From Lactiplantibacillus mudanjiangensis (GTDB taxonomy: Bacteria; Bacillota; Bacilli; Lactobacillales; Lactobacillaceae), in contig NZ_BJDY01000005.1 in the NCBI RefSeq assembly GCF_005405385.1, positions 186,001 to 250,000 on the forward strand: DNA of 64,000 nt, read 5' to 3'. Each line of letters begins with the position of its first letter. Positions within the stretch are counted from its first letter, which is position 1. A program made the translations under genes and the position numbers. Below the pieces are notes generated by a model, which was not told where the DNA came from, made no database searches, and saw only the letters and a list, made by a program, of their open reading frames with translations. Shown here piece after piece: positions 3,013-60,095 of the stretch.

Positions 3013-3570
3013 ACTAAAGGTTGAAAGCTAAATGTATTGGTCGAAGTCTTACCAACATTGACTCAAGTTGGATTAAATTGTCACCTACGCCAGCCAGCGA
3101 TTCTGCCGGCTGTGGGGACCGGCTCCTGCCAAAGTACGGCTTCCACCTCGCTTTTGAGACTAGCCAAAACCACTAGTCTCAAAAGTCGTCCATATCGTAA
3201 AGCCCGGGAAAATCACCCGGACTAACGATATTTTCACGGCCGGCGTCATCACTAGCTGGCTCCGGTTATATCGTGAAATTAATCAATCTGGTAACTATTT
3301 ATAGCTGATAGCGAGTCCACATTGAGCCCAGCCGCGGGAGTCTCTTAGCGATTTATCTCTTAGCGATTTATCGCTTAGAGACTGGCGCTTTTGAAACACG
3401 GGTTGGGTGGTTCAAAACGACGGTTCAGACCGCCTTTTGGCTGAACCGGTCCGCCCACAGCGTTCCGGCTCAATGTGGGCGAACGGTAGGCGACAAGTAT
3501 GACGAGTTTTGATCGATGAATGCTTATCATATCAACGATTATTGCTAAAAAGCAGCTTTCAACCTTTAGT
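3013..3570 (+). mobile_element. Structured mobile element, copy A (558 bp, non-coding)
   Basis: The ends are a perfect 17-bp inverted repeat (ACTAAAGGTTGAAAGCT and its complement), flanked by the exact direct repeat TATCTTG at 3006-3012 and 3571-3577. No convincing ORF is present. The interior is dense with inverted repeats, for example GGTTCAG 3422-3428 with CTGAACC 3441-3447, a 12-bp pair 3317-3328 with 3467-3478, and a long-range pair 3089-3101 with 3248-3260. The two halves resemble each other in inverted orientation. Homologous copies lie at 56418 and 59576. It supplies the stop codon of the neighbouring MFS gene. A direct tandem duplication of a CTCTTAGCGATTTA-type unit near 3351-3380 enlarges one hairpin in this copy. 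Confidence 0.85.
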
Positions 3571-4735
3571 TATCTTGATCTGTCATCCCCCAAGCTAACA
3601 CAACAATGCCTAAAATTAACGCACCTGCAAAGATGCTGAAAATCATCGGGATCTTCCAACCGCTACCTAACAAGTAGCCTACTAGATAAGGCCCACCAAT
3701 GGCGCCTAACCGCCCCATTGATTGGGTCACGCCAATTCCCATACCACGAATTGCTAATGGATAATGTCCAGGCGTAAAAGCAATCATAATGCCCCAAGCA
3801 CCAAGCGTAAAAAATGATAACCAAGCGCCACTTATTAAAATCACAGCATTAGAATTAGCTAGTCCAAAGGCCACGGCACTAATTAAGGTTCCTACTAAAT
3901 ACCCCATCAGGACCCTCTTACGCGACCATCGTCCCACTAACCACGCAGCCAAATAATACCCCGGTAACTGTGCGATACTCATTAATACTGTATACCCATA
4001 CCCTTTAACCACCGGAAACCCTCGGTTCATTAAAACCGTTGGCAACCACAGAAACATCCCGTAATACACTAACATAATTACAAACCAGAGCACGCCTAAT
4101 CCTAAAGTTGTCCGCCAATACGGCAGTGACCAGACTTGTCGCCACGCAGCTTTAAAATCGTATTTACTAGCAGCGGCAGTATGTGTCTCTGGTAAATGAC
4201 GCCGCATTAAAATGGTATAAACGCCCATCAAAGCCGTTAATAATACGGTCCAACGCCAACCAATTCGGGTCATGACCGAAAAGGCTAGGACCGCGGCCAA
4301 AATCCAGCCGAATGCCCAAAAACTATCAACCAACACTAACATTCGAGAACGTTGACTACCTTTAAAATGATCGGCAATAATTGTTGTGGCAACGGGTAAT
4401 TCGCCACCAAGTCCTAACCCAGTCACAAATCGAATGATGATGAACCACATCACATTCGGTGCTAAAGCCAATAATAAATTACCGATTGAAAATAAGAGCA
4501 GTGTCACTAGCATAATCGGCTTACGTCCAATCTGATCAGCCAAATGGCCAAAAACAATGGCCCCCACAAACATCCCCAATGATGTGATTGAGCCTACTAA
4601 GCCTAACTGATTAGCCGATAAGTGCCAACTGGTTTTAATAGCTGGCATAATAAATGATAGTAACGCGACATCTAACGCGTCAAACAACCATGCGGTCCCA
4701 ATTAATAATAAGAGCTTATGGCCCTTAACTTCCAT
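3566..4735 (-). CDS. MFS transporter, 12-TM metabolite:proton symporter type
   Basis: The protein has 389 residues and begins at ATG 4735 behind GGGGGA. It is strongly hydrophobic, with about 12 membrane segments and the MFS loop signature LADQIGRKP after TM2. It resembles sugar/organic-acid porters of the NaiP/AHS type; the substrate cannot be read from sequence. The stop TAA lies inside the terminal repeat of element A. Rejoining the two target-site copies predicts an original C-terminus one residue longer (DQDNE instead of DQDN), so the insertion barely changed the protein but separated the gene from its terminator. Confidence 0.85.
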   Translation of the reverse strand: MEVKGHKLLLLIGTAWLFDALDVALLSFIMPAIKTSWHLSANQLGLVGSITSLGMFVGAIVFGHLADQIGRKPIMLVTLLLFSIGNLLLALAPNVMWFIIIRFVTGLGLGGELPVATTIIADHFKGSQRSRMLVLVDSFWAFGWILAAVLAFSVMTRIGWRWTVLLTALMGVYTILMRRHLPETHTAAASKYDFKAAWRQVWSLPYWRTTLGLGVLWFVIMLVYYGMFLWLPTVLMNRGFPVVKGYGYTVLMSIAQLPGYYLAAWLVGRWSRKRVLMGYLVGTLISAVAFGLANSNAVILISGAWLSFFTLGAWGIMIAFTPGHYPLAIRGMGIGVTQSMGRLGAIGGPYLVGYLLGSGWKIPMIFSIFAGALILGIVVLAWGMTDQDN

Positions 4736-5080
4736 GCGATAAATCCCCCATACAATTGGTCCCCAAATCGCAGCGCCGCTTTCAATGAGACCTTAGTTAC
4801 CCTTAGAGTGATTTTAGGTTAGCATGCGCCTTTTTCACTGTCAACTAAGCTTTTTTCACAACCGAGTGATTAACCTAGCATTAGACCATGATTGTAGTCT
4901 AGACCAATCAAGAAGGGCTAAACGCCCCGTTTGTTGATTAACCGCTATCATTGTCAACGCCAGCTAAAGATGAGATTGATAGTCATGCATCATCACTGAC
5001 AACTTTAGCTAGACCGCTCATTCACGATTGTCACGCTTTTTTGATATCAAAAGTTTACTGTGATCTTTCTCAGTACAACA
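4736..5080. other. Intergenic region, no gene seen
   Basis: These 345 bases should hold the promoter of the MFS gene. I could not pick a convincing -35/-10 pair, and small frames here lack ribosome sites. Confidence 0.4.
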
Positions 5081-5112
5081 AAAAAGTCACGACAACGAGT
5101 GTCGTGACCGTA
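5081..5112 (-). terminator. Terminator of the 52-residue ORF
   Basis: GTCACGACA and TGTCGTGAC pair around ACGAG, followed on the minus strand by six T. It lies just behind the stop at 5125. Confidence 0.85.
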
Positions 5113-5124
5113 ATTAATTGTCTG

Positions 5125-5283
5125 TTATTGTTGTAAAGCCTGAACCATCCAACCATTAATGGCGGAACGTTCAATGATGGCTTTTTTGATTTCCCAGACA
5201 TCCGCTTTGATATAGCGTTGTCTTGCTGTCATTAAAGGAATATTTTGATAAACCTCATGACCGTTTTTAATCGTTACTCGCAT
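5125..5283 (-). CDS. Small protein of unknown function (52 aa)
   Basis: Starts at ATG 5283 with an AGGAAAGGA ribosome site and ends 15 bp before its own terminator, which supports a real gene. The product is soluble looking and basic (MRVTIKNGHEVYQN...), with no recognisable motif or membrane segment. I do not recognise the family. Confidence 0.7.
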   Translation of the reverse strand: MRVTIKNGHEVYQNIPLMTARQRYIKADVWEIKKAIIERSAINGWMVQALQQ

Positions 5284-5814
5284 TTAATTACGTCCTTTCC
5301 TAACGCTCAGGAAATTTTGCAAATAATTCTGGGTACTTATACTGGGTCAAGTATCATACTGCCATATTTTTCCAAAAATCTGAGATGCTTAATTGATTTG
5401 ATGTTCCTAACAAACCAAGTGTTAACTTTAACACATTGCCCCCACTAAAGCGACTACTTTGCTTCACACTTAACTTCTAGGACACTTTCTTAGGTTAGTC
5501 TTAACCTTTCAATTACCGCATCGCGGCCTCGCCCCCAAATGACTTAGATTAACCAACTCACTCACTATATCATAACTAAAACCAGCACTGGTTCAATTAA
5601 CACAAACCTTACAAATTTTACGTAAATCATACATTTATGTTCGATCGCCACACCCACCTATGAGCATAACCGATACCTTTCAATGACGCACTTTTCAACG
5701 CTTAAACATTAAGTTACCAAACATAACTATTTTTATTTCAGAATTAAGTTGTTAGCGTTGCCATTTAGTACCACTGGCCTTACACTTAGAGCATAGAGAT
5801 AGGAGGTCATTAGC
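5284..5814. other. Long intergenic region with a 16-bp palindrome
   Basis: 531 bases with no convincing gene. The only clear structure is GTGTTAA-CT-TTAACAC at 5419-5434, a candidate operator about 135 bp upstream of the 52-residue ORF. The promoter of the 36-residue ORF at 5815 must also be here. Confidence 0.4.
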
Positions 5815-5925
5815 ATGCGCAATTATAAATATTTAGCATATGGAGGTATTACTGTCGTTTATTTATTCGCTCTGTATGCCCTCTTCCATTTAGTCCGGTT
5901 AGCCTATTTCCTTTTCTTCTTATAG
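5815..5925 (+). CDS. Single-pass small membrane protein (36 aa)
   Basis: ATG 5815 follows AGGAGGTCATTAGC, an excellent ribosome site. The product has a short polar N-terminus (MRNYKYLAYGG) and then one continuous hydrophobic, aromatic segment to the C-terminus. The gene ends just before a strong terminator. Function unknown; such proteins often modulate a larger membrane partner, but no partner is indicated here. Confidence 0.6.
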   Translation: MRNYKYLAYGGITVVYLFALYALFHLVRLAYFLFFL

Positions 5926-5932
5926 ACCCAAC

Positions 5933-5974
5933 AAAAAAATTCAGTTTGGTCAATGACCAAACTGAATTTTTTTA
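5933..5974. terminator. Bidirectional terminator
   Basis: TTCAGTTTGGTCA and TGACCAAACTGAA form a 13-bp stem with A-run and T-run on either side. It serves the 36-residue ORF on plus and the DUF915-type gene on minus, whose stop codon lies in the T-run. Confidence 0.9.
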
Positions 5975-6856
5975 ACGATGCCACAAATAACGATCAATCG
6001 TCAAAGCGACCTTTGCATTTTCATGTAATTGACTGTGTTGTGCATGCTTACCATGGAAGACTTTTTCCGTATAGTGGACGTTATGACCACGTGTCAGATA
6101 TTTCACCGACCGCGCCGACACATTCGTCACTAAACTGTCCGAATTAGACCCATCATCTAAATTACCAATAATATTCAATAGATGAACCCCATTCGGGAAG
6201 TTAGCCCGTTTGGCGTCCAGTAATTCGTAGGCAGCATGTAAATACTTCGGTTGACCAGAAGTTAAAAATGAATTCTGATTAGCCACATCATCTTCACCAA
6301 CAACCCCATCAAACGGCCCCGCAATTGTCACCAGTTTGTGAATCGTTGGTAATTTAAGGCCCGTTGTCATGAGCATGTTCACACTTGCCACACAACCAGC
6401 AGAATGCGCTACTAAGTTGTACGACTTAAATGAATGGGCCTGTTGTACCGTTTGAATAACCTTCGCTAACCAAGCACTTTGTTGATCATACTGAGCCAAA
6501 TTATTTTTAAAGACCACTTGAATAATCGGGTTACGCGTCTTGGCATCCCAATGTCCACTCAGCGTCACTTGCCCACTTGTACTGACCGTTGCCACATAAA
6601 CCTTATGCGCATGTGCGGTTTTTTCAGCATGCGCAATTAATGTATTGGTAGATTTAGCACTACCTTGAAATCCATGCACATAAAACGTCGGCCGTGAACT
6701 AGTCACATAAGCTGATTTCGCCACCGTCCGTTTCGATTGGCTAGTCGTTGACGACGCCTTGTTTGTCGCACACCCCGTCAATAGCATCACCAAGCTCATC
6801 ACTAACCCTAAATAAACCCCTAATCGCCATCGTTGCACTAACTTTCGCCTCATCAT
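5972..6856 (-). CDS. DUF915-family alpha/beta hydrolase lipoprotein
   Basis: The 294-residue protein has a signal peptide ending in the lipobox LLTG|C (Cys near residue 29), so it should be lipid-anchored outside the cell. The nucleophile elbow is AHSAG (Ser about residue 160), preceded by an oxyanion FVHGFQG-type loop near residue 60 and followed by a late His (GKHAQHS). The fold matches the lactobacillal 'cell surface hydrolase' DUF915 group; the substrate is unknown. Its start overlaps the stop of the NlpC/P60 gene (ATGA), so the two are translationally coupled, suggesting a shared role in envelope metabolism. Confidence 0.85.
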   Translation of the reverse strand: MMRRKLVQRWRLGVYLGLVMSLVMLLTGCATNKASSTTSQSKRTVAKSAYVTSSRPTFYVHGFQGSAKSTNTLIAHAEKTAHAHKVYVATVSTSGQVTLSGHWDAKTRNPIIQVVFKNNLAQYDQQSAWLAKVIQTVQQAHSFKSYNLVAHSAGCVASVNMLMTTGLKLPTIHKLVTIAGPFDGVVGEDDVANQNSFLTSGQPKYLHAAYELLDAKRANFPNGVHLLNIIGNLDDGSNSDSLVTNVSARSVKYLTRGHNVHYTEKVFHGKHAQHSQLHENAKVALTIDRYLWHR

Positions 6857-7755
6857 TCTGTTTGCCAGTATCGTTTAACTTGAACTAACTCATCTTTTAA
6901 ATAGGTCGCGGATAATTGTAAATAGGTCACCATTTTACCCGGTGTTGGCGCATGTAATAACCACCCATCGCCTGCGTACAGTGCCACATGATGCAGGGCA
7001 CCTTGACCTTGTTCGTGCGCGAAAAAGCATAGGTCACCTGGCTGCATGTCATCGACAGCCACTGGTTGACCATCCAAGACTTGTTCACTGACATCACGCG
7101 CTAATGTCACGCCAATGCAGCGATGTAAGGCGTAGGCAAAACCTGAGCAGTCGAAACCATACCCGCTCAAACCGCCCCATAAATAACGCAAATCCAAGAA
7201 TGACTCACCTAACTTAATCATCGTTTGTCCGGGCGTTAACGTGGCAGTTTCAAAGCCAAATTGCGTTGCGCGTTTTGCCACTTTTCCAACTCCCAGCGGC
7301 GTTTGGACTAAATCATAACGTGGATCTTTACTCGAAACGACCGGTAGTTGTGTCCCAATACTTAATTGCAACAAGGTGCGGCCGTCTGCTTGTAATAACG
7401 GTGTAAACGCGCGACGAACCGTGACTGTTGGGCCAGTTATCACCGGTAGTGGTATCGTTGATAACTGTGCCGCCCAGATCCAGCCCGGATACCCTTGTGG
7501 ATGACGCACATCACGCTGCGAAACCACATAAACTGCGGCCCAGCCATCGACCACATGATCAATCACCACTGGATCATTAAACAAGGCTTGCGTCACTAAT
7601 CGATTATCACGTTCTAAGGCAATCGTATCTGAATCGCTTAATTGGGCTAACCATGGCGCTAGTCCGGCATTCTGTAACGCTAACGTATCCAACGACCGGA
7701 TTTGTGGTCGTTGCCAAACGTTAGCCACAGCCGCTTGAACTCTAGCTGTTTGCAT
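6853..7755 (-). CDS. NlpC/P60 gamma-D-glutamyl endopeptidase, YkfC type
   Basis: About 300 residues from ATG 7755, chosen over 7797 because GGGAGGAATCAGG lies directly upstream. The N-terminal two thirds look like two SH3b domains; the C-terminal domain has catalytic Cys in YGFDCSGF and His in HHVALYAGDG, with a later His (LLHAP). YkfC-type enzymes cut the D-Glu to diamino-acid bond of peptidoglycan peptides. No signal peptide is visible, which suggests a cytoplasmic muropeptide-recycling enzyme, unless export is non-classical. Memory suggests L. plantarum LytD (lp_2520) as relative; unverified. Confidence 0.85.
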   Translation of the reverse strand: MQTARVQAAVANVWQRPQIRSLDTLALQNAGLAPWLAQLSDSDTIALERDNRLVTQALFNDPVVIDHVVDGWAAVYVVSQRDVRHPQGYPGWIWAAQLSTIPLPVITGPTVTVRRAFTPLLQADGRTLLQLSIGTQLPVVSSKDPRYDLVQTPLGVGKVAKRATQFGFETATLTPGQTMIKLGESFLDLRYLWGGLSGYGFDCSGFAYALHRCIGVTLARDVSEQVLDGQPVAVDDMQPGDLCFFAHEQGQGALHHVALYAGDGWLLHAPTPGKMVTYLQLSATYLKDELVQVKRYWQTE

Positions 7756-7921
7756 TCCTGATTCCTCCCGTTTTTCATTACGTTTATCATACGCCACTTT
7801 GGTTAACCGCGGTAGCGTCCGGTTAAGTTGTTAACCTTTCTTCAAAAATCCGCGGTTAAAATTAAAAACCACTGTGAAAGTATGCTATCATACTTATAAT
7901 TACTCAGGAGGCGTGGCAATT

Positions 7922-8386
7922 ATGGATAAAACCGATTTAAAGATCTTGAACGCCTTACAAGCAGACGCTCGAATCTCGTTGAAGGCCCTCGCCGATCAAT
8001 GTTTCATTTCCTCACCAGCAATTTCAGCTCGAATTGCCCGGTTAAAAAGGAGTGGCATTATTCGCGACTATCAAGCCAACTTGAATTACGATCAATTAAA
8101 CTACCATATTAAAGCTTATATTCAGCTTCAATTAGAACCAACCCAAAAGGAACGGTTTTATCCGTTTGTCGCTAGCATTCCCAACGTTCTCGAATGCGAT
8201 TGTGTGACCGGTGAATACTCACAAATCATGAAAGTCGTTTTTGAATCGACACAAGCGTTGGATGAATTCGTTAACAAGATTCAAGCCTTCGGTAAAACCA
8301 GCACCCAAATCGTCTTTTCAACCAGCGTCCCTAATCGGGGGCTGACCTTACCAGCTGATCACGATCTCAGTCAGATTGTCGATTGA
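7922..8386 (+). CDS. Lrp/AsnC-family transcriptional regulator
   Basis: 154 residues from ATG 7922, behind AGGAGGCGTGG; the longer frame from 7874 lacks a ribosome site. The N-terminal helix-turn-helix (KTDLKILNALQADARISLKA, then SSPAISARIARLKRSG) and the C-terminal RAM/effector domain match the family. These regulators sense amino acids. It faces away from the NlpC gene, and the target genes are not evident. Confidence 0.9.
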   Translation: MDKTDLKILNALQADARISLKALADQCFISSPAISARIARLKRSGIIRDYQANLNYDQLNYHIKAYIQLQLEPTQKERFYPFVASIPNVLECDCVTGEYSQIMKVVFESTQALDEFVNKIQAFGKTSTQIVFSTSVPNRGLTLPADHDLSQIVD

Positions 8387-8437
8387 CGTTCACTCAGACA
8401 ATTAATTAACCGTTTCATCAAATCACTTAGCCAATAT

Positions 8438-8490
8438 CATGACCAAGTCCCCTATCTATCAGGGACGGTCATCGATAATGGCTTTTTTAA
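8438..8490 (+). terminator. Terminator-like hairpin after the Lrp gene
   Basis: GACC-AA-GTCCC pairs with GGGAC-GGTC around a 10-base loop; a T-run comes only 13 bases later, so the call is moderate. Confidence 0.5.
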
Positions 8491-8620
8491 GTTGCCCAAC
8501 TTTTACTAACTTTAAAATCCAGGTGCCGTTTTACCTGCATTTTAATATTAACCGGTGTACCATATCATTAGTAAGCAATTTAATTGGTTCATATCGAAGT
8601 TTGAAAAGAGGTTAATGATT

Positions 8621-9823: not shown

Positions 9824-9832
9824 AGGGTTGCA

Positions 9833-9878
9833 AAAAAGGACGCGACGATTTTTAAAATCGTCGCGTCCTTTTTTGTGC
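9833..9878. terminator. Bidirectional terminator
   Basis: AAAAAAGGACGCGACGATTT pairs with the mirrored half over about 17 bp, with A-run and T-run. It serves NDH-2 on plus and can stop the ABC-F transcript on minus. Confidence 0.9.
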
Positions 9879-10016
9879 ACTGATGTTATGAGTCAAAACG
9901 TGGAACCAAAGCCTGCGACCTGTGCTTAGCTACGGCATCTAAACGATTGAAAAACCCAATCATTTAGGTGCCTAGGCTATGCTCGGTCCCAACCCGGCTT
10001 TGGTCCCACTCTTGAC

Positions 10017-11564: not shown

Positions 11565-11595
11565 GTTGTTTTCATCCTACTTTCATTTATTAACT

Positions 11596-11638
11596 CGGCA
11601 AAACAGGCCCCGTTCGTTTTAACGAGGCCTGTTGCAAA
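11596..11638 (-). terminator. Terminator of the GNAT gene
   Basis: ACAGGCC...GGCCTGT stem with inner GTT/AAC pairs, followed on minus by TTTT. Confidence 0.75.
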
Positions 11639-11652
11639 CACTTAGGTGGCGG

Positions 11653-12240: not shown

Positions 12241-12268
12241 AAATAGTCCTCCTATCGTAGTAACTAAT

Positions 12269-12297: not shown

Positions 12298-12355
12298 AAT
12301 TCAGACACGCCGTGGTATACTGGTAACCGAATTCATTTTGAAAGGATTTGAAATT

Positions 12356-12804: not shown

Positions 12805-12810
12805 CACCAG

Positions 12811-19886: not shown

Positions 19887-20555
19887 TTACTTAGCGCTCA
19901 CCGTATATCGTTTCAAATTAAAATCAGTCGTCTTCGTACGGACATTAGGCTGCTTGATGATAAATTTGAAATGGCTCTTTTTGCGACTAATCCGTGCCGT
20001 ATAAGTTTTTCCACGATTCGTAAACTTCTTTGTGACACCAACTTTTTTGAATAGTATGTACTTTGGTCGCTGCACGGCTATATCGAAAAAGCTGATCTCG
20101 CCAACATTCATGACACCTTTATCACCGGTTGAAGAGACATCATATCTATACGCGCCTTTACCGGATAGTTGTAGTGATTTTAACGTCTTATCTGCATAAA
20201 CCGTTTGATACAACGTCCCAATTTTGGTCGGCTTTATGTTGACATATGGCACCGCATAAACAAAGACGACCTTTTGTGGCTTAGCTTTAAACACCAGCTT
20301 ACGCTTAACCGATCCCTGTAATAACAAGTTTTTATTATGGTCAAAAACATTGCCTTTGGCCGTATATGATTTGCCAATTTTTCCGGTGACCTTATCCTGA
20401 TCTAAAACGCCACCAGTGTTCATTTTATAAACAATCGTGATAGTCCCCTTATGTACAGCCGCCTGAGCAACATTTTGTTTTGGTCCCATGAACAATCCAA
20501 ACCCGACCATCATCAAACCAACTAGCATGCCCCAAGACTTTCTCAGCTTAACCAT
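19887..20555 (-). CDS. Secreted protein with MucBP-like N-terminal region
   Basis: 222 residues, ATG 20555 behind GAGGGGGAG. The signal peptide (LVGLMMVGFGLFMG, cleavage near AQAA at 32-33) is followed by GTITIVYKMNTGG...GKIGKSYTAKG, which fits the MucBP-type beta pattern, and then a basic domain rich in Lys/Tyr. No LPxTG, so it is probably released or held by charge. It is 21 bp from the next gene. Confidence 0.7.
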   Translation of the reverse strand: MVKLRKSWGMLVGLMMVGFGLFMGPKQNVAQAAVHKGTITIVYKMNTGGVLDQDKVTGKIGKSYTAKGNVFDHNKNLLLQGSVKRKLVFKAKPQKVVFVYAVPYVNIKPTKIGTLYQTVYADKTLKSLQLSGKGAYRYDVSSTGDKGVMNVGEISFFDIAVQRPKYILFKKVGVTKKFTNRGKTYTARISRKKSHFKFIIKQPNVRTKTTDFNLKRYTVSAK

Positions 20556-20576
20556 CTAATCTCCCCCTCAACGACT

Positions 20577-21059
20577 TTAAAGCCCATGAAATTGTCCAAC
20601 GTGACCATAAACCAACATTAATGGCATATTCACCACTAACAACCACCAAAAGACTTGTAACGTTTGTTTTAACGAGGCCTGATACTCCCCCACCCGACCG
20701 GCTAAAATAATAGTCGCGGTTAGTAACAACCAAAAACAGCCAATCGGCGTTAAATCAATGTTAAACCACACCAACGTAATCAAGACAAACACCGCATCAA
20801 ATAATGAAAAGTCATCTAAGTCAAAGCCACCTAGACCAACTGGTTTCCCAGTTAATGGCCGTTGAAGCCATTGTTTCAGCGTCGTAAACAACATAATCAC
20901 CAACGGAATCACGGCCAAAATGACCGCCAACTGATTATGCCAAAAATAATACAAGATACCGGTTTCAATTAGGTTCGCACCTAATAAACCACCGGCAATC
21001 CCCAGGGTTGTTTTTAAATCGACCCATGCAAATTGAGTCCCCGGTCTGTCTAAGCTCAT
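20577..21059 (-). CDS. Multi-pass membrane protein of unknown function
   Basis: 160 residues with about five hydrophobic segments and a short polar loop (GKPVGLGGFDLDD). Start ATG 21059 follows GGTGGGATAACG. Base composition is closer to the core genes than that of the small genes downstream, so the island border may lie between this gene and 19887. Family not recognised. Confidence 0.7.
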   Translation of the reverse strand: MSLDRPGTQFAWVDLKTTLGIAGGLLGANLIETGILYYFWHNQLAVILAVIPLVIMLFTTLKQWLQRPLTGKPVGLGGFDLDDFSLFDAVFVLITLVWFNIDLTPIGCFWLLLTATIILAGRVGEYQASLKQTLQVFWWLLVVNMPLMLVYGHVGQFHGL

Positions 21060-21145
21060 CGTTATCCCACCAATCGCTCGGTTAATTGTTTCCTTGCTTA
21101 ATGATTATTATATGTTGTTGATCACCTTTTAACAATCACTAATCA

Positions 21146-21194
21146 AACCAACAAAAAAATCGTTTACCAGTTTTAAAACACTAGTAAACGATTA
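21146..21194 (-). terminator. Terminator of the pantothenate-kinase-like/hydrolase operon
   Basis: ATCGTTTAC.AG pairs with CT.GTAAACGAT around a 10-base loop, with a 7-T run on minus. It lies 200 bp behind the hydrolase stop because a small structured element sits between. Confidence 0.75.
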
Positions 21195-21218
21195 TTTGAA
21201 TCAACTATTACAGCGGCA

Positions 21219-21380
21219 TCAGGTCAACTTGATGGTCCGTGTCAATGCCGTTTGCTGACGTTTTTAGTCAGCTTAGGGCATGGACAGTTAGTAGACTTGC
21301 TTTTTAGGCTACTAACTGAGGGACCAGACCGCTTTTTGGCTGGGCACGTTCCCCACAGACCATCAAGTTACACCTGATAA
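21219..21380 (+). mobile_element. 162-bp structured element related to copies A-C
   Basis: Ends form a long imperfect stem (TCAGGT and AACTTGATGGTC with their complements), flanked by the direct repeat AGCGGCA (21212-21218, 21381-21387). Inside are perfect GCTGAC/GTCAGC and TTAGTAG/CTACTAA hairpins and the core GACCGC-TTTTTGGCTG-...-CCCCACAG (21327-21358) also found in both halves of the long elements. No ORF. Confidence 0.6.
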
Positions 21381-21393
21381 AGCGGCAACTACC

Positions 21394-22173
21394 TCACCCC
21401 AAAAAGTCCAACATCACCTGATTAAACTTATCCGTCTGTTCCGCCATAATAATATGGCCGGCTTGTGGAATCACGACTGACGAGCCATGTGGGCACAACT
21501 TGGCGGTAGCTGCGGCATGTTCAGCTGGCCAGAATGGCGTTTTTTCACCAGCCATGAATAAGACCGGCACCTGCAACCGCCCGATCACATCTCGCCAATC
21601 TTGAAACGCATGATCGTATAACAGTGGTCGATTCAAGGCATAATCGAATTTATGATCGCCTTGTGCCGCTTTAACTGCGGCAAAGGTACTGTCATCGATC
21701 CGTTTGAAGGTTGTATGCACGTGATACATTTCTTCAGCGGCTTTTGGAAAATTATCCCACGTCAAATCTAGTAATCCATAAGGCCACGACTCATCGCTAA
21801 TCATCTTAGGCGACTGGTCGACACTAATAATCTTATGAATCAAGCGGTCACCATATAGCGAACAATAGGCCCAAATCACTGCGACGCCCATTGAATTCCC
21901 CATCATATCGACATTGCTAACATTCAAGTACGCCAATAATTCCGCCACATCCTTAGCTTGCCGACTCATCCGTAAGCCCTTAGTTGTCGTTTCCGAACGC
22001 CCATGATTACGCCGATCTAAGTTAATCACACGATAGCCTTGTGACACTAACGCTTTAACTTGTGCGCGCCAAATTTCTTTATAGCCAGCGTAACCCGTCA
22101 TGATGAGAATCGGTTGTCCAATCCCCACATCATCGTATGTTAACTGCACGCCATCACTCGTTAAAAATTGCAT
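21394..22173 (-). CDS. Alpha/beta hydrolase
   Basis: 259 residues, ATG 22173 behind AAGGAGG. The nucleophile motif is GNSMG (Ser about 94), with Asp in the VLFMAGEKTPFW strand region and His in PQAGHIIMAEQ near the end: a complete triad. Belongs to the haloperoxidase/esterase-like group. Only 14 bp behind the pantothenate-kinase-like gene, so co-transcribed. Thioester or ester cleavage linked to the CoA module is possible but unproven. Confidence 0.88.
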   Translation of the reverse strand: MQFLTSDGVQLTYDDVGIGQPILIMTGYAGYKEIWRAQVKALVSQGYRVINLDRRNHGRSETTTKGLRMSRQAKDVAELLAYLNVSNVDMMGNSMGVAVIWAYCSLYGDRLIHKIISVDQSPKMISDESWPYGLLDLTWDNFPKAAEEMYHVHTTFKRIDDSTFAAVKAAQGDHKFDYALNRPLLYDHAFQDWRDVIGRLQVPVLFMAGEKTPFWPAEHAAATAKLCPHGSSVVIPQAGHIIMAEQTDKFNQVMLDFLG

Positions 22174-22187
22174 TCCCCTTTACCTCC

Positions 22188-22901
22188 TTAAGCCTGCGCA
22201 ACTGCTGCGACTGTTGATTGACTTGGTTCTAGCCAAGTGAGCTGATGATCCGCATTCATGTGGACTTGCCAAGCGGACAATGACCGTAATGGGGCAACAT
22301 TCTCATTAAAATTACGTTCATTAATTTCTATCCAGCTTCGACGCGCTCGTGGTTCAAATTCCGCCCAAGTGAGTCCTTGTTGCCCGGCCAAGTTCAAATG
22401 TGAACAGCGTTGTAAGTACCATTGATAGTTATCCGTTGGCTCAACATCTAAGAAAAGACTACTCGTTAATAACTGGCGAAACATTGGTTGTAAGACCATT
22501 AGCCCTTCAATAATTAAAATATCCGGTTGATAAACAACTTTCTGTGCTTGCCGGTCGATGTCATTCGTGGCATGATTGTACGTGGGCAATGTGATGGCTT
22601 GATCATGCTTAATCGCCATGACAAATTGCCACACCAACTGCTTATCATAACTGATTGGAAACCCTTTTTTATCACTCAACTGAAATCGCTGTAATTCAGC
22701 GTTTGATCGTAAGAAGTCATCAGTCGAAACCAAGACACAGTTCAACGCTGGCCAACACTGTTGATACGCTTGTTGTAATTGCCGCGCTAGCGTGGTTTTA
22801 CCAGAAGCGACTCGTCCAGTAATTCCAAGAATCACGGGGCAAGCATTGGTCGGTTGCGGTAATATTTTTGTTAAGTCAGTTGTTTTAATTATTGGCATCA
22901 T
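22188..22901 (-). CDS. Short pantothenate kinase (CoaA)-like protein
   Basis: 237 residues from ATG 22901 (AAAGGTGG upstream; ATG 22898 is equally possible). P-loop GRVASGKTT lies near residue 28, followed by STDDFL, KKGFPISYD and PDILIIEGL, all CoaA landmarks, and a C-terminal EIN..N...NVAPLR segment. Normal type I CoaA has about 70-90 more residues before the P-loop, so this is an N-terminally short paralogue. CoaA phosphorylates pantothenate in CoA synthesis. Placed divergently from LysR and beside CoA-ester genes, a CoA-supply role is attractive but the substrate may differ. Confidence 0.75.
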   Translation of the reverse strand: MMPIIKTTDLTKILPQPTNACPVILGITGRVASGKTTLARQLQQAYQQCWPALNCVLVSTDDFLRSNAELQRFQLSDKKGFPISYDKQLVWQFVMAIKHDQAITLPTYNHATNDIDRQAQKVVYQPDILIIEGLMVLQPMFRQLLTSSLFLDVEPTDNYQWYLQRCSHLNLAGQQGLTWAEFEPRARRSWIEINERNFNENVAPLRSLSAWQVHMNADHQLTWLEPSQSTVAAVAQA

Positions 22902-52842: not shown

Positions 52843-52881
52843 GTCCAAGACCTCCTTAATTTTTCCTGCCGAATGTCAAAT

Positions 52882-53140
52882 AAAAAAACGCCCTCTTAGC
52901 TTAATTGCTAAAAGGACGTTTACGCGTGGTTCCACCTTTGTTCGTTACTAGCTCACACTAGTAGCCTCATGTTGACAAATCGTCAACTTGGATAACGAAA
53001 CCATTCGGCCAAGGCTAATCTACCTGGTTCACCTTGGCAGTTCATAGATGTGGGTTCATTAATAATATCTGCTCGGTTCTCAGCTACCCGAACTCTCTGG
53101 ATGAGGAAGTTATTAACTACTTTTTCTAATCACAACCGTT
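52882..53140 (-). promoter_or_regulatory. His-specific T-box leader
   Basis: On minus: CCAGAGAGTTCGGGTAGCTGAGAA stem I hallmark (about 53075-53100), specifier CAC within CCCACAT (53048-53054), antiterminator GGTGGAACCACGCG (about 52922-52937), and the terminator CTTAGC/GCTAA with seven T at 52882-52921. CAT, one base on, cannot be excluded as specifier but is also His. Confidence 0.92.
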
Positions 53141-53201
53141 TTATTAAAATTTGATTAGGCGTTTAATTTAAAATTCATTCTAGTAGTCTTTTTTTAACTT
53201 G

Positions 53202-54038: not shown

Positions 54039-54091
54039 ATTCTCAGCTCCTTTTAATAATTGTTCACTATTCAACCATAAATTATCATAAA

Positions 54092-54136
54092 TAGCAATAT
54101 TCAAAAAAAAGCCTGAGCCTTAACCCAAGCTAGTCT
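54092..54136 (-). terminator. Terminator of the TetR gene
   Basis: AGCTTGGG/CTCAGGCT (with wobble pairs) and eight T on minus. Confidence 0.75.
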
Positions 54137-54139
54137 CAA

Positions 54140-54754
54140 TTAAGCTTTTTCAGATGCACTACCCGCATGGCGATAAGCCGGCACTAAAATATCATCGACC
54201 AACAATTTCACCTTATCATCGCCAATCGTTTCACGCGTAAATACATGATATCGTAACCACTCAAACGGTAATAATTTTAAATCGTTTGAAAAAGCAGTTG
54301 TCGTGATTTCACCCCGAGTTTGCGCCCGTTCGAGTACCCGATCAATGGCGTGAATATCAATAGTTGAGCTTTCTTCAACAATTTTTGAAATCACAGTCCC
54401 TTGTTCTTGATTTAAAACACTAAAAAAAGTCGTCACATATGACTGACCAAAAGTATTCATACTAATAACGAATCGTTTCATAACTTGCATTAAATCCTCG
54501 CGTAAACTATCACCAGTAAATACCACCTCATCAGTTCGACCATTGTTCTCAGCCTTAATCTGATCCTGAACTGCCGCTAACGATAATTCAAAGGGTGACT
54601 TCCAGCGCCGGTAGATCACGGGTTTACTCGTTCCAGCTGCGGCTGCCACTTTCGGAAACGTTAGTCCCGCTAATCCTTCAGTCGCTAATATCTCACGTGT
54701 TGCTTGAAAAATAGCCTTTTCTAATTCAACCCCACGGCGACGTGTTTTTGTCAT
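54140..54754 (-). CDS. TetR-family repressor
   Basis: 204 residues from ATG 54754, nine bases behind GGAG. N-terminal HTH with LTFPKVAAAAGTSKPVIYRRW; the C-terminal ligand domain is typical (DUF-like TetR_C). Divergent from the MFS gene, with two palindromes between; expected to repress that gene and itself until bound by a substrate. Confidence 0.92.
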   Translation of the reverse strand: MTKTRRRGVELEKAIFQATREILATEGLAGLTFPKVAAAAGTSKPVIYRRWKSPFELSLAAVQDQIKAENNGRTDEVVFTGDSLREDLMQVMKRFVISMNTFGQSYVTTFFSVLNQEQGTVISKIVEESSTIDIHAIDRVLERAQTRGEITTTAFSNDLKLLPFEWLRYHVFTRETIGDDKVKLLVDDILVPAYRHAGSASEKA

Positions 54755-54773
54755 CACGATTCACTCCTTATTT

Positions 54774-54855
54774 AAGAAACCAAAAGTTTCTTATTGACTT
54801 TTTTCTCTCTAAGCGTATTATAGCAGTTGTGCTTTTAAGATACCAAAAGTTTCTT
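54774..54855. promoter_or_regulatory. TetR twin operators around an MFS promoter
   Basis: AAGAAACCAAAAGTTTCTT (54774-54792, perfect 7-5-7 dyad) touches the -35 box TTGACT (54794-54799); -10 TATTAT is at 54816-54821 (16-bp spacing). The second dyad, one mismatch, at 54837-54855 lies in the 5' leader just before AAGGAG. Confidence 0.85.
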
Positions 54856-54872
54856 ATGTAAGGAGAAAGAAA

Positions 54873-56351
54873 ATGAAAAAACAACCTACCAAAATTTCAA
54901 AATCAACGATGACCATTGCTTGGGTCATCGTATTCGGTGCCATGGCACCGCTATTAGATTCAACCATGATGAACATCGCCATCAACAACTTGGTCAAAAG
55001 CTTTAACAGTTCGGTGACCACGGTTCAATGGACGATTACTTGTTACCTACTGGCTACTGGTGTCGCCGTACCATTTTCCAGTTGGCTACTCAACAAATTT
55101 GACGGTAAACTCGTCTTTATGACTGGTGAAATTTTATTTGGTGTCGGATCAATTTTATCCGCAATCTCACCAAATATTCAATTTCTAATCGGTGCGCGCT
55201 TAATTCAAGGGTTTGCTGGCGGTTTAATCATGCCACTGTTAACGACCTTGTTAGTCCAAACTGCCGGAACTGCTGTGATGGGTCAAATGATGGCAACAGT
55301 AGGGCTTCCCATGATTCTTGGACCACTTTTTGGACCCGTTATCGGCGGGGTTATTATCAAGTTTCTTTCTTGGCACTGGATTTTCTGGATTAACGTGCCC
55401 GTCACCTTAATTTCAATGTTCTTAATCATTTGGAAAATGCCTAACTACCCCGCACAAAATAAAGCAGCTAAAATGGATTTCATTGGAATCTTATTGTTAA
55501 TCGTGTCATCCAGTTCAATTATTTATGCGATCGTCAAGGCTGCTCACAGTGCTAATTTCACCAATCATACGACGGTCACTTTCTTAATTATTGGCGCCGT
55601 AGCCTTGATCTTGTACATTATCTGGGCCGCCTTTCGTCGTGAACAGGCCGTTTTGCCACTTAGTCTATTCACCTTCCCATCATTTGATGGTTCAGTCGTC
55701 GGGCTGTTTCTCGCCGGGACAGTTCTCAATGGTGCCATGCTATTACTGCCACTTTTCCTCCAAAATGTGCAAGGGATGAGTGTCATCATGGCCGCCTTAG
55801 CCTTGGTACCACAAGGCCTTGGTATGTTAGTTTCACGGCCACTAACCGGTAAGCTCACAGACCAAATTGGGGCTAAATATGTGGTCTTCACCAGTGTCTT
55901 AATCACGTTTATTGGCACACTACCGTTCTTTTGGATTGGTATTCACACGGCTTATTGGTTAATCGCCATCGTCTTGTTTGTTCGCGGTATCGGTGCTGGT
56001 GGGATTTTGATGCCATTAATGGCTGACTCTTACACCGGTATGGACAATGCCCAAGTACCAGCCGCAACGATTGGGTCTCGGATTATCCAAAATGTCGGCA
56101 GTGCATTTGGTTCGGCGTTAATCACCACTTTGGTCACGGCTTACTCCAACTCGCACGTTAAAACATTTGAACATCGTCTGGCAGCTGGTCATTACCATGT
56201 AGCCGCAAGTCATTTGAAAGCATTCACGACTCAACACTTAGTTAACATTCGCCTTGAAGCATTTCAATATGGTTTCTTATTCATCTCAATCGCAGCCTTA
56301 GTCATCATTTTGCCAACCCTATTCTTATCTAACAAAATGAAAAAAGTTTAA
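54873..56351 (+). CDS. DHA2-type 14-TM multidrug MFS transporter
   Basis: 492 residues, ATG 54873 behind AAGGAGAAAG. About 14 membrane segments; motif C-like GLPMILGPLFGPVIGG in TM5 marks an antiporter, and LDSTMMNIAI in TM1 is the DHA2 (EmrB/QacA) signature. Proton-driven efflux of drugs or related compounds; substrate unknown. Controlled by the adjacent TetR. Confidence 0.92.
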   Translation: MKKQPTKISKSTMTIAWVIVFGAMAPLLDSTMMNIAINNLVKSFNSSVTTVQWTITCYLLATGVAVPFSSWLLNKFDGKLVFMTGEILFGVGSILSAISPNIQFLIGARLIQGFAGGLIMPLLTTLLVQTAGTAVMGQMMATVGLPMILGPLFGPVIGGVIIKFLSWHWIFWINVPVTLISMFLIIWKMPNYPAQNKAAKMDFIGILLLIVSSSSIIYAIVKAAHSANFTNHTTVTFLIIGAVALILYIIWAAFRREQAVLPLSLFTFPSFDGSVVGLFLAGTVLNGAMLLLPLFLQNVQGMSVIMAALALVPQGLGMLVSRPLTGKLTDQIGAKYVVFTSVLITFIGTLPFFWIGIHTAYWLIAIVLFVRGIGAGGILMPLMADSYTGMDNAQVPAATIGSRIIQNVGSAFGSALITTLVTAYSNSHVKTFEHRLAAGHYHVAASHLKAFTTQHLVNIRLEAFQYGFLFISIAALVIILPTLFLSNKMKKV

Positions 56352-56359
56352 TCTAACTA

Positions 56360-56408
56360 AAAAAGATGATCACAACAGCCAATATTGGCGTTGTGATCAT
56401 CTTTTTAT
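56360..56408. terminator. Bidirectional terminator
   Basis: AAGATGATCACAAC/GTTGTGATCATCTT with inner CCAATATTGG; ends the MFS gene on plus and originally the deacetylase gene on minus, from which element B now separates it. Confidence 0.92.
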
Positions 56409-56417
56409 ATTTTCATC

Positions 56418-56955
56418 ACTAAAGGTTGAAAGCTGAATTTCAGACTTAACCATTGATAGGATAGACATTTAACGGTCAAAAATAGCGAAACTTGCCGCCT
56501 ACCGTTCGCCCAATCCGGGCCGGAACGCTGTGGATGGACAATCCAAGCCAAAGTTCGGTCTTGGATTTCGTTTTGAACCGCAAAGGTCGGCGTTTCAAAA
56601 GCGCCAGTTTCTAAGCAAAAACCGCTAAGAAACGCCCACGGCTGGGCCCAGATTAGACTCACTTTCGGCTAGAGTTGTGATCAAATCATTGATCATCGCT
56701 TAACCGCAGGCTGTCAGTGATGGCGCCAACCGTGAAAACGTCGTTGTCCGGGTGTTTTTGCCGGACTTACAACGTGGACGTCTTGAAAGACTAGTGGTGT
56801 TTGCTAGGCTTTCAAGCGAGATTGAAGCCCGCCTTTTGGCTGAAATCGGTCCCCACAGCTGGCAGAATCACTGACAGCCGGAGGTGACCGATTTAAGAGT
56901 ATTCAAGTCAGCTCTAGCAAGGTCCTACTAACGATGAGTAAGTTCAACCTTTAGT
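56418..56955 (-). mobile_element. Structured mobile element, copy B (538 bp, inverted)
   Basis: Same terminal repeats (ACTAAAGGTTGAA at both ends) and exact direct repeat TTTCATC at 56411-56417 and 56956-56962. Read on minus it aligns with copies A and C along its length but is the most divergent. Pairing is kept with different bases: AATCCAAG/CTTGGATT (56540-56547, 56560-56567) where A has GGTTCAG/CTGAACC, and a perfect 13-bp long-range pair GGCTGTCAGTGAT (56709-56721) with its complement (56868-56880). It lies 2-9 bp behind the deacetylase stop. Confidence 0.85.
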
Positions 56956-56963
56956 TTTCATCA

Positions 56964-57857
56964 TTAATTTTGTGTCAGCCATTTCTTAATACTTGGCCAA
57001 CTATTTCCGTTCACGATCATTCGTGGTAAGTTGTTCATTGCCGTTTCATCGGTGACAATCCCGACATCTAAGGTTGCAATACCTTCAGTCAAATGTTGCT
57101 TACTCAAGAAATTATTAATCCGTTTAGGGCCACTCCCATATGGATAGGCAAACATCTTCGCAGTAACCCCCATATGCGCTTTTAACTCACGCTTACTTAA
57201 CGCAAAATCACGTTTAAAGTTTTGATATTCATGTGGTTGATCAAAAATCGGTGTAAACTTCTTGGTTAAATAATGCATATCATGCGTATGCAAGCCTAAA
57301 GTCATCAATGATCCTGCCGACTTTTTAGCAGCCTTGATCTGTGACCAAGTTGCCAATTGCGTGCCTTCACGGTAACGGCCAGTATTTCCGGTAATCACAA
57401 ACGTGGTAAACGGCATGTGATACTTCTTCATAATTGGCATGGCATTATCAATCGTGGTTCGATCAATATCATCAAAGGTTAAGACAACGTATTTGCCCTT
57501 AATCGGTTTGCCGCTAGCTTTCATTTGCGCCATTTGCGCACTCGAAATCACTTTCACGTGTTGCTCATGAAGGGTCTTCATTTGGGCGGCAAATTGATCT
57601 AATGGCACATTAAAGTCATGTAACTGTGAGTTACTCGACAAGATTTTTGATAATTGGACCCCGGCAGTATTCTTCAAAATCCGGTGATAACAAAAAATAA
57701 TGATCCCATTTTTCGCGCGCGCATCTTCTGGGCGTAACGCATAATCTTCGTTGCCACCCTTATTAAATTGGAAATTCTGTTTAACGGTGAAGCCCATGGC
57801 CACGACCACTAATAATGCTAACAGCCAAATTAATCCTTTTCGTTTCCACCGCTTCAT
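56964..57857 (-). CDS. Polysaccharide deacetylase (IcaB/PgaB type)
   Basis: 297 residues from ATG 57857, overlapping the PgaD-like gene by 4 bp. Signal/anchor helix (GLIWLLALLVVVAMGF), then IIIFCYHRIL, metal/catalytic LTFDDIDRT, HTHDMH and FAYPYGSG motifs of CE4. In the ica/pga systems this enzyme removes some N-acetyl groups from poly-beta-1,6-GlcNAc outside the cell, which aids attachment. Loss of its nearby terminator through element B may affect mRNA ends. Confidence 0.9.
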   Translation of the reverse strand: MKRWKRKGLIWLLALLVVVAMGFTVKQNFQFNKGGNEDYALRPEDARAKNGIIIFCYHRILKNTAGVQLSKILSSNSQLHDFNVPLDQFAAQMKTLHEQHVKVISSAQMAQMKASGKPIKGKYVVLTFDDIDRTTIDNAMPIMKKYHMPFTTFVITGNTGRYREGTQLATWSQIKAAKKSAGSLMTLGLHTHDMHYLTKKFTPIFDQPHEYQNFKRDFALSKRELKAHMGVTAKMFAYPYGSGPKRINNFLSKQHLTEGIATLDVGIVTDETAMNNLPRMIVNGNSWPSIKKWLTQN

Positions 57858-58141
57858 GCTTGTTTCCCCCGTAATTTCCGTAACCGCCACGCGGCATAAC
57901 CCCAAACTATCAGTGAAACAAGCACAATGATACCAACCACAATGCCATATAACTGATAATCCAAATTCATCAACAAGTAAAAGCTAACCAGTGTATCACT
58001 GTAGACGTGAAAGATGAACGCGAGATTCACGACCACAACAAAAATCACAAATAGCCACATCGCCGCAATCAACAAAATCCGCCCACCAGTCCGATGCGCA
58101 CTAGTCTGCTTACGAATCACAAATTTTTCATTATCCCGCAT
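57854..58141 (-). CDS. PgaD/IcaD-like small membrane subunit
   Basis: 95 residues from ATG 58141, which shares a base with the synthase stop (TAATG). Two long hydrophobic segments and a basic C-terminus. Size, topology and place directly after the synthase fit PgaD/IcaD, the partner needed for full synthase activity. Confidence 0.75.
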   Translation of the reverse strand: MRDNEKFVIRKQTSAHRTGGRILLIAAMWLFVIFVVVVNLAFIFHVYSDTLVSFYLLMNLDYQLYGIVVGIIVLVSLIVWGYAAWRLRKLRGKQA

Positions 58142-59364
58142 TACTTCAACCCCCGATCTGGACTGGTCCACGTCCCAATCCGATCTGGATCTAAGACGAA
58201 CGAAATGATGGCCGCGATACAACTGACCAAGTTAATCATCCAATAATAGATGATATAAACTGGTATCAATAATAGATCGCGCCATTCCAAATAGGCCGCA
58301 GCTTGTGATGCTTTAAACCCAATCCCGAATTGGGTAAAACTGATGACCAATAAGATCAACAAAATATCGCCATCCAGCTGCACCGAGTGCACCATAATCA
58401 AATTTAGCACCCATGAAATAAGACTTAATGAGGTACAAATCGCCCAAACATTACTAATCACTGTTTCATAAAGTAAAACGCGTTTACTCCAGCTACCATG
58501 AGCCAGGACATCACGGTTTCCCACCAGCACTTCAAGCCCACCACGTGACCAACGTTGCCGTTGCTTGATCAGATTCCGTACGCTTTCGGGCACAAGAATC
58601 CAGCAAATTGCTCGTGGTTCATAACGCACTTGCCAGCCATGCCGATACATCCGCCACGTAATATCAATATCTTCAGTCATAACCGCTGGATTCCAACCGC
58701 CAACTGCCAGTAATGCGTCTCGACGAAAGGCAACAATGACGCCAGAAACTGTTGTAATCCGGCCCGTCAAAAAGGCTTGGGCTTTCTTAATAATGTCAAT
58801 AACCCCAATATATTCCAATAACTGTAGCCGACCCAAAATAGTCGTCCGATTCCGAACCACTGGTTTACCAGCCACTGCTCCAATATGAGGATCACTATTT
58901 AACGTCTTCACAAGTTCAGATAATGACTGATAGTCTAGGATCGAATCTGAATCGATCCCCAACAAATACTCACCGTTAGCCACTTTTAGTCCCTGGTTCA
59001 TCGCGTTAGCTTTGCCTTGATTAACTTCAATTGGCACAACTTTAATCAAAAAACGATTTTCATAAGCTTTTTGTAACTCATACATGATGTTCAACGTATC
59101 ATCACTGCTCTTGTCATCAATCAGAATGATCTCAAAATTATGATAATGTAGCGCCGCAATCGATGCCACGGCCCCTTTTAAGGTATCCTGTTCATTATGC
59201 GCTGGCACGAGAATCGACACTAACGGTGCAGTATCAGGCGTTAGCACTGGTCGTTTTTCAGTTCGCTGTAACTTACCAAAATAAAGACACCCAATAATCC
59301 ACAGGGACGCCACTAAGATTGGATAACCAATCACAAAGTCATTCATTAAATTAATCAACCACAT
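58141..59364 (-). CDS. pgaC: Processive GT2 glycosyltransferase, PNAG synthase type
   Basis: 407 residues: N-terminal membrane segment, GT-A domain with SILVPAHNE, IDDKSSDDT, GIDSDSI, VMTEDIDITWRM (catalytic base Asp) and QRQRWSRGG, then about four C-terminal helices. This is the IcaA/PgaC layout. It polymerises UDP-GlcNAc into poly-beta-1,6-N-acetylglucosamine and exports the chain. The cluster has synthase, PgaD-like and deacetylase but no IcaC acyltransferase. Confidence 0.9.
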   Translation of the reverse strand: MWLINLMNDFVIGYPILVASLWIIGCLYFGKLQRTEKRPVLTPDTAPLVSILVPAHNEQDTLKGAVASIAALHYHNFEIILIDDKSSDDTLNIMYELQKAYENRFLIKVVPIEVNQGKANAMNQGLKVANGEYLLGIDSDSILDYQSLSELVKTLNSDPHIGAVAGKPVVRNRTTILGRLQLLEYIGVIDIIKKAQAFLTGRITTVSGVIVAFRRDALLAVGGWNPAVMTEDIDITWRMYRHGWQVRYEPRAICWILVPESVRNLIKQRQRWSRGGLEVLVGNRDVLAHGSWSKRVLLYETVISNVWAICTSLSLISWVLNLIMVHSVQLDGDILLILLVISFTQFGIGFKASQAAAYLEWRDLLLIPVYIIYYWMINLVSCIAAIISFVLDPDRIGTWTSPDRGLK

Positions 59365-59575
59365 ATTTTTTTAATTACTCCTTTTAATCGTTCCCCATCA
59401 ATAAGCATATTATTTTAACACATAATTGCCGATTGACTAGTTGAATCACATAATCGGTGGATTTTGGTTCCTAAACGTTTATGACGTAATTAAGTGGCAA
59501 TTTCTTTATTTTCTATGAAAAAAAGGTGAATGACCATCATTCAGTCACAATTCTCCAGTACAATGGGTTTAATTA

Positions 59576-60095
59576 ACTAAAAGTTGAAAAATAATTATAG
59601 TGATGGAACCCTTACCAGTACTATCCTGAGTTATGCTAAATCGGTCACCTACGCCAGTCAGTAATTCTGCCGGCTGTGGGGATCGGTTCCAGCCAAAGTA
59701 CGGGCTTCCACCTCACTTTTGAGCCTAGCCCAAATCGCTAGTCTCAAAAGTCGTCCACATCGTAAGCTCGGGAAAACCACCCGAACTAACGATATTTTCA
59801 CGGCCGGCGCCATCACTGGCTGACTCCGGTTATTTCGAATTAATCAACTTGGTAACTATTATAGCCGATAGTGAGTCCACATTGAGCCCAGCCTTGGGAG
59901 CTCTTAGCGATTTATCGCTTAGAGCTCGGCGCTTTTGAAACACGGGTTGGGTGGTTCAAAACGACGTTTCAGACCGCTCTTTGGCTGAGCCGGTCCGCCC
60001 ACAGCGTTCCGACTCAATGTGGGCGAACGATAGGTGGCAAGTATGACTAGTTTTTATCAATGATTATCGATAAAAACTATCTTTCAACCTTTAGT
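59576..60095 (+). mobile_element. Structured mobile element, copy C (520 bp)
   Basis: Terminal repeats ACTAAAAGTTGAAA...TTTCAACCTTTAGT (one C.A mismatch), flanked by TTAATTA at 59569-59575 and 60096-60102. Closely similar to copy A, with single-copy GAGCTC-type hairpin where A has a tandem duplication. Several arms keep pairing with altered bases (TCGGG/CCCGA where A has CCGGG/CCCGG). It lies in the 5' region of the VanZ-RDD gene, 28 bp before its ATG, so it may have replaced or displaced the promoter. Confidence 0.85.

Follow-up and report, generated by a model that had tools for sequence, protein, structure and literature searches.

Short non-coding elements with IS4-family ends carry a conserved folded unit in Lactiplantibacillus mudanjiangensis

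The 64,000-nucleotide stretch of the Lactiplantibacillus mudanjiangensis genome analysed here in full (assembly GCF_005405385.1, contig NZ_BJDY01000005.1, positions 186,001 to 250,000 of the forward strand; hereafter the window) contains three homologous elements that are short and non-coding, that share their ends with an IS4-family insertion sequence (IS), and that belong to a set producing 7–9-bp duplications upon insertion. They are derivatives of that IS resembling miniature inverted-repeat transposable elements (MITEs), with an unusual structured cargo: each element holds two units of about 190 nt in divergent orientation, and the fold of the unit is maintained by compensatory changes. 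The cargo is part of a broader family within the Lactobacillaceae, which probably includes an already known and unexplained repeat. As an explanation for the whole, we think it probable that IS4-derived, MITE-like carriers were moved in trans and bear an older structured unit as cargo, for which we favour a role as RNA.

All three copies, which a sequence-only reading of the window had described as homologous and bounded by terminal inverted repeats (TIRs), are present as follows:

3014–3569, + strand: element copy 1, 556 bp, TIRs CTAAAGGTTGAAA and TTTCAACCTTTAG, target-site duplication (TSD) TTATCTTGA at 3005–3013 and 3570–3578
56419–56954, - strand: element copy 2, 536 bp, inverted, TSD TTTTCATCA at 56410–56418 and 56955–56963
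59577–60094, + strand: element copy 3, 518 bp, TSD TTTAATTAA at 59568–59576 and 60095–60103, the site being unoccupied in the sister species G003

Boundaries were set by taking CTAAAGG...CCTTTAG as the ends. The exact duplications reported from the sequence alone are real, but they are 9 bp apiece and not 7 bp, one base on each side having been omitted. Among the 38 elements whose ends could be recognised within the examined stretches of the same genome, exact duplications of 7–9 bp flank 23, duplications with one mismatch flank seven, and eight have none; in a random-placement control, an exact repeat of at least 7 bp arose in 2 of 20,000 placements and one of at least 6 bp in 10 of 20,000. 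The site of copy 3 is unoccupied in G003, which has a single, diverged copy of the target there. What this empty site demonstrates is insertion only.

The elements carry no coding signal, in agreement with the earlier remark that they contain no convincing open reading frame (ORF). In 48 copies from the same genome, drawn from 66 merged copies after partial and duplicate ones were excluded, the longest stop-free frame averages 70 aa, against 77 aa in shuffled sequence; a search for three-base periodicity in these copies found none; and 399 of 521 gaps, counted per row of the alignment, are not a multiple of three in length. Frame length, periodicity and gap lengths together ruled out a protein-coding element.

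The ends of the elements lead to a candidate source of mobility. The exact 15-base element end is present in 13 of 151 Lactobacillaceae genomes, and insertion sequences with the same ends as the window elements occur as copies of 1559–1569 bp in G140, G163, G004, G012 and G001. The 15-base ends bound 1569-bp copies with 7-bp duplications in G140 and G163, and complete copies in G012 and G001 likewise have the same ends and 7-bp duplications, so that the autonomous IS with the same TIR and a 7-bp duplication that the sequence-only reading had envisaged exists in these four genomes. In G004 the duplication is 5 bp, and a further genome, G061, has a 1564-bp copy with the same ends. The transposases of G140 (449 aa) and G061 (451 aa) match NCBIfam NF049925 of the IS4 family (E 8.7e-145 and 2.7e-150), and both contain the Y-2-R-3-E-6-K motif (YREK), which we take to be the mark of an IS4-type transposase. 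Within the window's genus, 7 of the 21 genomes gave transposase matches. The L. mudanjiangensis genome itself gave a match of only 48 residues, with one stop inside, beside an orphan TIR.

Because relatives hold an IS with the same ends and this genome retains only a transposase fragment, the elements are best described as non-autonomous, MITE-like derivatives of the IS4-family IS. For the same reasons, the natural inference is that the IS4-type transposase acted on them in trans, and with only the 48-residue fragment left to them they would now be stranded in this genome. They have what is expected of MITEs: shortness without coding capacity, TIRs in common with an autonomous IS, a target duplication, and a YREK-type IS4 transposase in that IS. 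The earlier suggestion of a MITE-like element moved in trans is thus well supported as an inference, by the TIRs, the duplications, the empty site and the autonomous IS of relatives.

The window copies are a small part of a large set. A DNA search indicated at least 40 element copies in the genome (40 of 221 candidates were scored, and each of them matches), and the 13-mer of the TIR, allowing one mismatch, occurs 132 times, against six for the reversed pattern. This abundance, and a lone fourth unit at 21242–21359, go beyond what had been read from the window. Numerous copies are truncated or internally rearranged, and at least five lie within one 16.5-kb stretch.

Each element contains one multi-hairpin unit twice over, as diverged copies that make up its two halves and are inverted relative to each other; the unit folds into an outer stem and three hairpins. 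Folding z-scores for copy 3 are -8.3 on the + strand and -10.9 on the - strand. A 40-pair structure was evaluated on a 40-row alignment of half-units from several species (A1), in which 91.6% of pairs are standard. Two-sided change was found at 32 of the 40 pairs (22.0 in shuffled alignments, with 0 of 500 shuffles reaching the observed value, and 11–18 with slid partners) and in 293 cells (80.8 shuffled, again 0 of 500, and 20–59 slid). This covariation bears out the earlier impression that the folding is far beyond that of a MITE hairpin. The unpaired motifs GGGACG, CGAGG and AGACC...GGCU are conserved as well, and bulged bases occur in the conserved hairpins.

The A1 seed was hand-picked: 187 of 261 sequence windows passed a motif filter, 70 were aligned, 17 were dropped, and 39 of the remaining 53 were used, with one added. 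The dropped rows include four right arms from L. mudanjiangensis and several chance matches, and the rows from this genome in the seed are three left arms, among them that of copy 3 (L001), and no right arm. A covariance model (R1) built on A1 detects both arms in all three window elements and also the lone unit (E-values are rough):

3109–3234, - strand: unit, left arm of copy 1, R1 97.9 bits, E 1.3e-22
3336–3461, + strand: unit, right arm of copy 1, R1 53.3 bits, E 1.6e-11
21242–21359, + strand: lone unit, R1 76.3 bits, E 3.1e-17, with a long outer stem at about 21213–21386
56527–56636, - strand: unit of copy 2, R1 50.4 bits, E 8.6e-11
56735–56859, + strand: unit of copy 2, R1 107.9 bits, E 4.3e-25
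59673–59798, - strand: unit, left arm of copy 3 (in the seed), R1 110.9 bits, E 7.6e-26
59895–60005, + strand: unit, right arm of copy 3, R1 59.9 bits, E 3.6e-13

When 95 R1 hits were filtered by flanking motifs and realigned without the model, a longer outer stem emerged that extends the unit to about 190 nt. In the genome as a whole R1 matched all 150 candidates scored, out of 1,003, giving at least 150 units.

Covariation of this kind could in principle be a mutational artefact, in which template switching inside imperfect palindromes would preserve the complementarity of stems with no selection on the fold, and multi-copy, stem-rich DNA is prone to such correction. We consider this very improbable for the unit, in which the unpaired motifs are conserved too and G-U cells outnumber A-C cells on one strand, although that excess depends on the fold used and counts cells and not events.

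A rival account of broader scope is that the elements are purely selfish MITEs, whose fold merely makes insertions harmless by rendering them structured and untranslatable and has no role in trans. The truncated or rearranged state of many copies is in keeping with it, as is the placement of the units: 119 of the 120 distinct units fall outside any ORF of at least 150 aa, and 116 do so when the limit is lowered to 120 aa, both by a simple ORF caller. By the same caller, the gaps holding units lie between convergent genes in 29 cases and between divergent genes in 10, with 27 units reading in the direction of both flanking genes and 30 against both; a further 23 units had no gene on one side in the stretch examined. 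What makes the account distinctly unlikely in our view is, first, the pattern of conservation. In the 48 copies the arms have a mean column identity of 0.925 and 0.936; the TIRs reach 0.865 and 0.833, the spacers 0.752 and 0.843, and the centre 0.829. Were the elements nothing more than MITEs, their ends should be no less conserved than their body, so that arms exceeding TIRs in identity weigh against this account.

The second difficulty for a purely selfish MITE is that the unit mostly occurs in other genera without these ends. Specific IS4-type ends with a duplication surround 5 of 117 units (control 0 of 65), four of which belong to two elements of the window's genus. The sole case outside the genus is a single-unit element of 339 bp in Companilactobacillus nantensis (L233:1123-1461) with IS4-type ends and the TSD TTACTAC. 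In a general search for TIRs with a TSD, 5 of 31 dimers were positive (null 1 of 60), namely the three window copies and two others from the same genus; IS4-type ends around dimers of other genera were accordingly rejected. In G072 a unit is followed some 100 bases later by an exact right end, and the left end is found there only as a candidate with three mismatches. A search of 20501–22200 for a CTAAAGG-type end around the lone unit, allowing up to three mismatches, found none. Since ends and duplication surround one unit only outside the genus, the unit is not tied to the IS4-type carrier and is probably older than it. On the reading that we prefer, then, the unit would be an older structured element that was picked up as cargo by IS4-type ends.

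The distribution of the unit is broad. Matches to R1 occur in 110 of 397 Lactobacillaceae genomes and in 12 of 40 genera, with 19 of these genomes belonging to the window's genus; eight candidates were scored per genome in the family and order scans, and copy numbers there are therefore floors. Across an order-wide sample 25 of 395 genomes match, of which 22 are in the family and three, weakly, elsewhere. The weak hits (L292 and L294 from G685 and G510, and G661:C1:1744301-1744410) lie in another family of the order, are single or double, and are either chance or remote relatives. A pattern scan found the unit in C. nantensis, five Levilactobacillus species, Lactobacillus sp. HBUAS51381, an uncultured Lactobacillus and Lactiplantibacillus fabifermentans, the last of which has elements sharing as much as 90% identity over 189 nt with elements of G005, a genome from the window's genus. 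At one orthologous site compared among L. fuyuanensis, L. parabrevis and a metagenome-assembled genome, the unit has 176 of 193 columns identical, against 235 of 349 in the upstream intergenic sequence; in the next 60 columns downstream, 44 are identical.

An origin from plasmids or phages was rejected: copy 3 has no match in plasmids or phages, one Levilactobacillus unit has no plasmid match, and viral contigs scanned with one specific unit pattern gave zero exact matches. Nine plasmids, from Ligilactobacillus salivarius and Lactiplantibacillus plantarum, nevertheless carry one diverged relative of the plantarum type each, such as L270:6001-6216 on pSF118-44, and R1 detects the unit in three of the four plasmid regions viewed. 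In these four regions the relatives adjoin ABC-transporter genes or, in a single region, a thioredoxin-family gene.

Units also tend to stand in a particular arrangement. Among the 120 units, with four loci of duplicate DNA left out, 39 neighbouring pairs lie no more than 700 bases apart; 31 of these are divergent, eight tandem and none convergent. Base-pair usage, counted in alignment cells and not in independent events, suggests which strands matter. For the pairs that the two strands' folds have in common, in the + strand reading, the left arm has 106 A-C against 35 G-U cells and the right arm 60 G-U against 25 A-C; in A1 there are 69 G-U and 35 A-C cells, or 34 and 15 at 75% redundancy. 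The counts for the two arms reversed an initial guess of the sense strand from A-rich loops. Tentatively, each arm may be selected on its own outward-reading strand, and since the arms look selected in this way, the working form would more likely be two divergent strands than one through-transcript.

Several observations pull against this overall picture. As to the carrier, an exact duplication is absent in 15 of the 38 elements, and in the seven complete IS copies for which the two flanks could be compared the duplication is 7 bp in four, 5 bp in one and absent in two, the last being degraded copies in G013 and G017. As to the cargo, similarity over the whole element served both to find the 48 copies and to align them, so that the conservation of the core may be flattered. 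As to the strands, pairs from the + fold alone give 195 G-U against 107 A-C cells in the left arm, pairs from the - fold give 61 against 73 in the right arm, and three columns supply 36 of the 106 left-arm A-C cells. A promoter signal was sought upstream of 92 units, and 9 of 92 reach nine of twelve matches, against 10.9 in shuffled sequence; at ten of twelve matches there are three units against 1.05 shuffled. This counts against a promoter for each unit, and the idea of a separate small-RNA gene served by a promoter close by was rejected, further scans also staying near shuffled levels. Finally, G018 and G019, both of the window's genus, gave no R1 match among 150 scored candidates each, which makes the unit dispensable. 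Runs of five T within 110 nt past the unit number 20, against six in shuffled sequence, and may belong to adjoining genes.

Much of this evidence also fits a different function, in which the unit works as folded single-stranded DNA: a putative enzyme would recognise one strand during replication or transfer and so spread the unit, and the IS4-type ends would be a later carrier. Integron attC sites and the hairpins of repetitive extragenic palindromic (REP) and bacterial interspersed mosaic element (BIME) systems, which are short hairpins with a RAYT transposase, provide the comparison. The 150 or more matches in one genome, the bulged bases within conserved hairpins, the divergent pairing with zero convergent pairs, the dependence of wobble on the strand, the lack of promoter signal at the 92 units and the inconsistent orientation to genes are all in its favour. 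Yet REP hairpins measure 20–60 nt, far less than the unit, and at the one orthologous site compared it is conserved and in place. We regard this alternative as possible, if rather unlikely.

Our best guess at function is instead a stable structured RNA that would act in trans, with folded single-stranded DNA as the main alternative; the guess is made because the orientation of the unit follows no gene, an inconsistency that also ruled out a cis-regulatory leader. In its widest form, the proposal would be of a trans-acting structured RNA found across the family and lying beyond Rfam, which forms a dispersed gene family of at least 150 copies in some genomes, stands in divergent pairs, has become transposon cargo in at least two genera, and counts the Lactobacillus plantarum supermotifs (LPSMs) as one branch. 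We offer this tentatively, and the chances are against its holding in full. If it did, the carrier would be spreading an RNA gene in place of a protein gene. A large unit with strong covariation, in more than a quarter of the sampled Lactobacillaceae genomes, has in any case no match in the standard RNA library, and non-autonomous IS4-type derivatives are here shown carrying a structured nucleic acid whose conservation exceeds that of the transposon ends.

With regard to neighbouring genes, one end of copy 1 gives the TAA stop codon of the ORF at 3566–4735 on the - strand (window 3566–3578), and the insertion therefore changed the last codons of that gene. One end of copy 3 lies 29 bp upstream of the start of the ORF at 60124–61287, with the element directly past a TACAAT box (window 59560–60124) that is retained in the empty site of G003; copy 3 may thus sit in the leader of this ORF. 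The intergenic region of copy 3 holds other units in G017 (L276:4364-4443, E 2e-5) and G004 (L277:1023-1137, E 1.4e-5), and that of copy 2 holds another in G005 (L280:3932-4050, E 7e-21), as if these regions attracted or retained units. The lone unit, with its stem at 21213–21386, is directly downstream of the gene at 21394–22173 on the - strand.

Among known systems, the large RNAs ROOL, GOLLD and OLE have ornate folds, as described in PMC12286853. The window elements are also large and ornately folded, but they differ in being multi-copy, TIR-bounded and without a credible Rfam match. At the gathering threshold the sole Rfam match in the whole window is a T-box leader at 52909–53142 on the - strand (RF00230, 114 bits), and at E up to 1 all hits at 15 loci fall under gathering scores and none is credible, ROOL and GOLLD included. 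A known RNA family was rejected on these cmscan results, and the sequence-only reading was right not to equate the elements with either of the two. Its further suggestion of an undescribed family stands as far as Rfam is concerned; the unit nevertheless spans much of the Lactobacillaceae and probably includes the LPSMs cited in PMC5643018.

Dispersed repeat motifs offer a second comparison, made by description only. MRSC-65-2 (PMC11109978) and the stem-loop repeat families of PMC2267715, whose sole Lactobacillus in the portion concerned is L. johnsonii, are repeat motifs of this kind. The unit resembles REP/BIME and MRSC-type repeats in being structured, present in many copies, intergenic and inconsistent in orientation, and differs from them in its larger size and in having a TIR carrier in the window's genus.

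The LPSMs (Wels et al., 2009, as cited in PMC5643018) come closer. In that citation they are intergenic, transcribed, cruciform sequences of 800–1000 nt, with many copies per genome and no known function, and are not found in other Lactobacillus species. Diverged repeats in the sister genomes G010, G012, G015 and G016 give 25, 11, 12 and 10 R1 matches (E 1.7e-7 to 9e-4). At 14 loci of G010 and G015 the shared repeat is 636–1040 bp long in 11, part of a longer shared sequence in two and 267 bp in one; these candidate LPSM loci contain an R1-type unit, and CTAAAGG ends sought there were found at 0 of 14. A second, divergent unit is present at 3 of 18 plantarum-group loci searched. Plantarum-group loci have readable inverted ends, but a search for a duplication at them gave none. 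Like the LPSMs as cited, the window elements are large, intergenic, numerous and cruciform-like in fold, with 119 of 120 units outside ORFs and at least 150 in one genome; they differ in length (518–556 bp against 800–1000 nt), in their IS4-type ends, and in that the unit occurs in 12 of 40 genera whereas LPSMs are cited as absent from other Lactobacillus species. In size, copy number and setting the diverged repeats of the sister genomes match the LPSMs as cited. The unit family thus probably includes the LPSMs, which would make of an oddity of one species a puzzle of the whole family, with a defined core open to testing. The last comparison is with MITEs of IS4-family insertion sequences, which the window elements resemble in being short and non-coding with IS-type TIRs and target duplications, and from which they differ in their body, a structured cargo with two arms whose conservation exceeds that of the ends.

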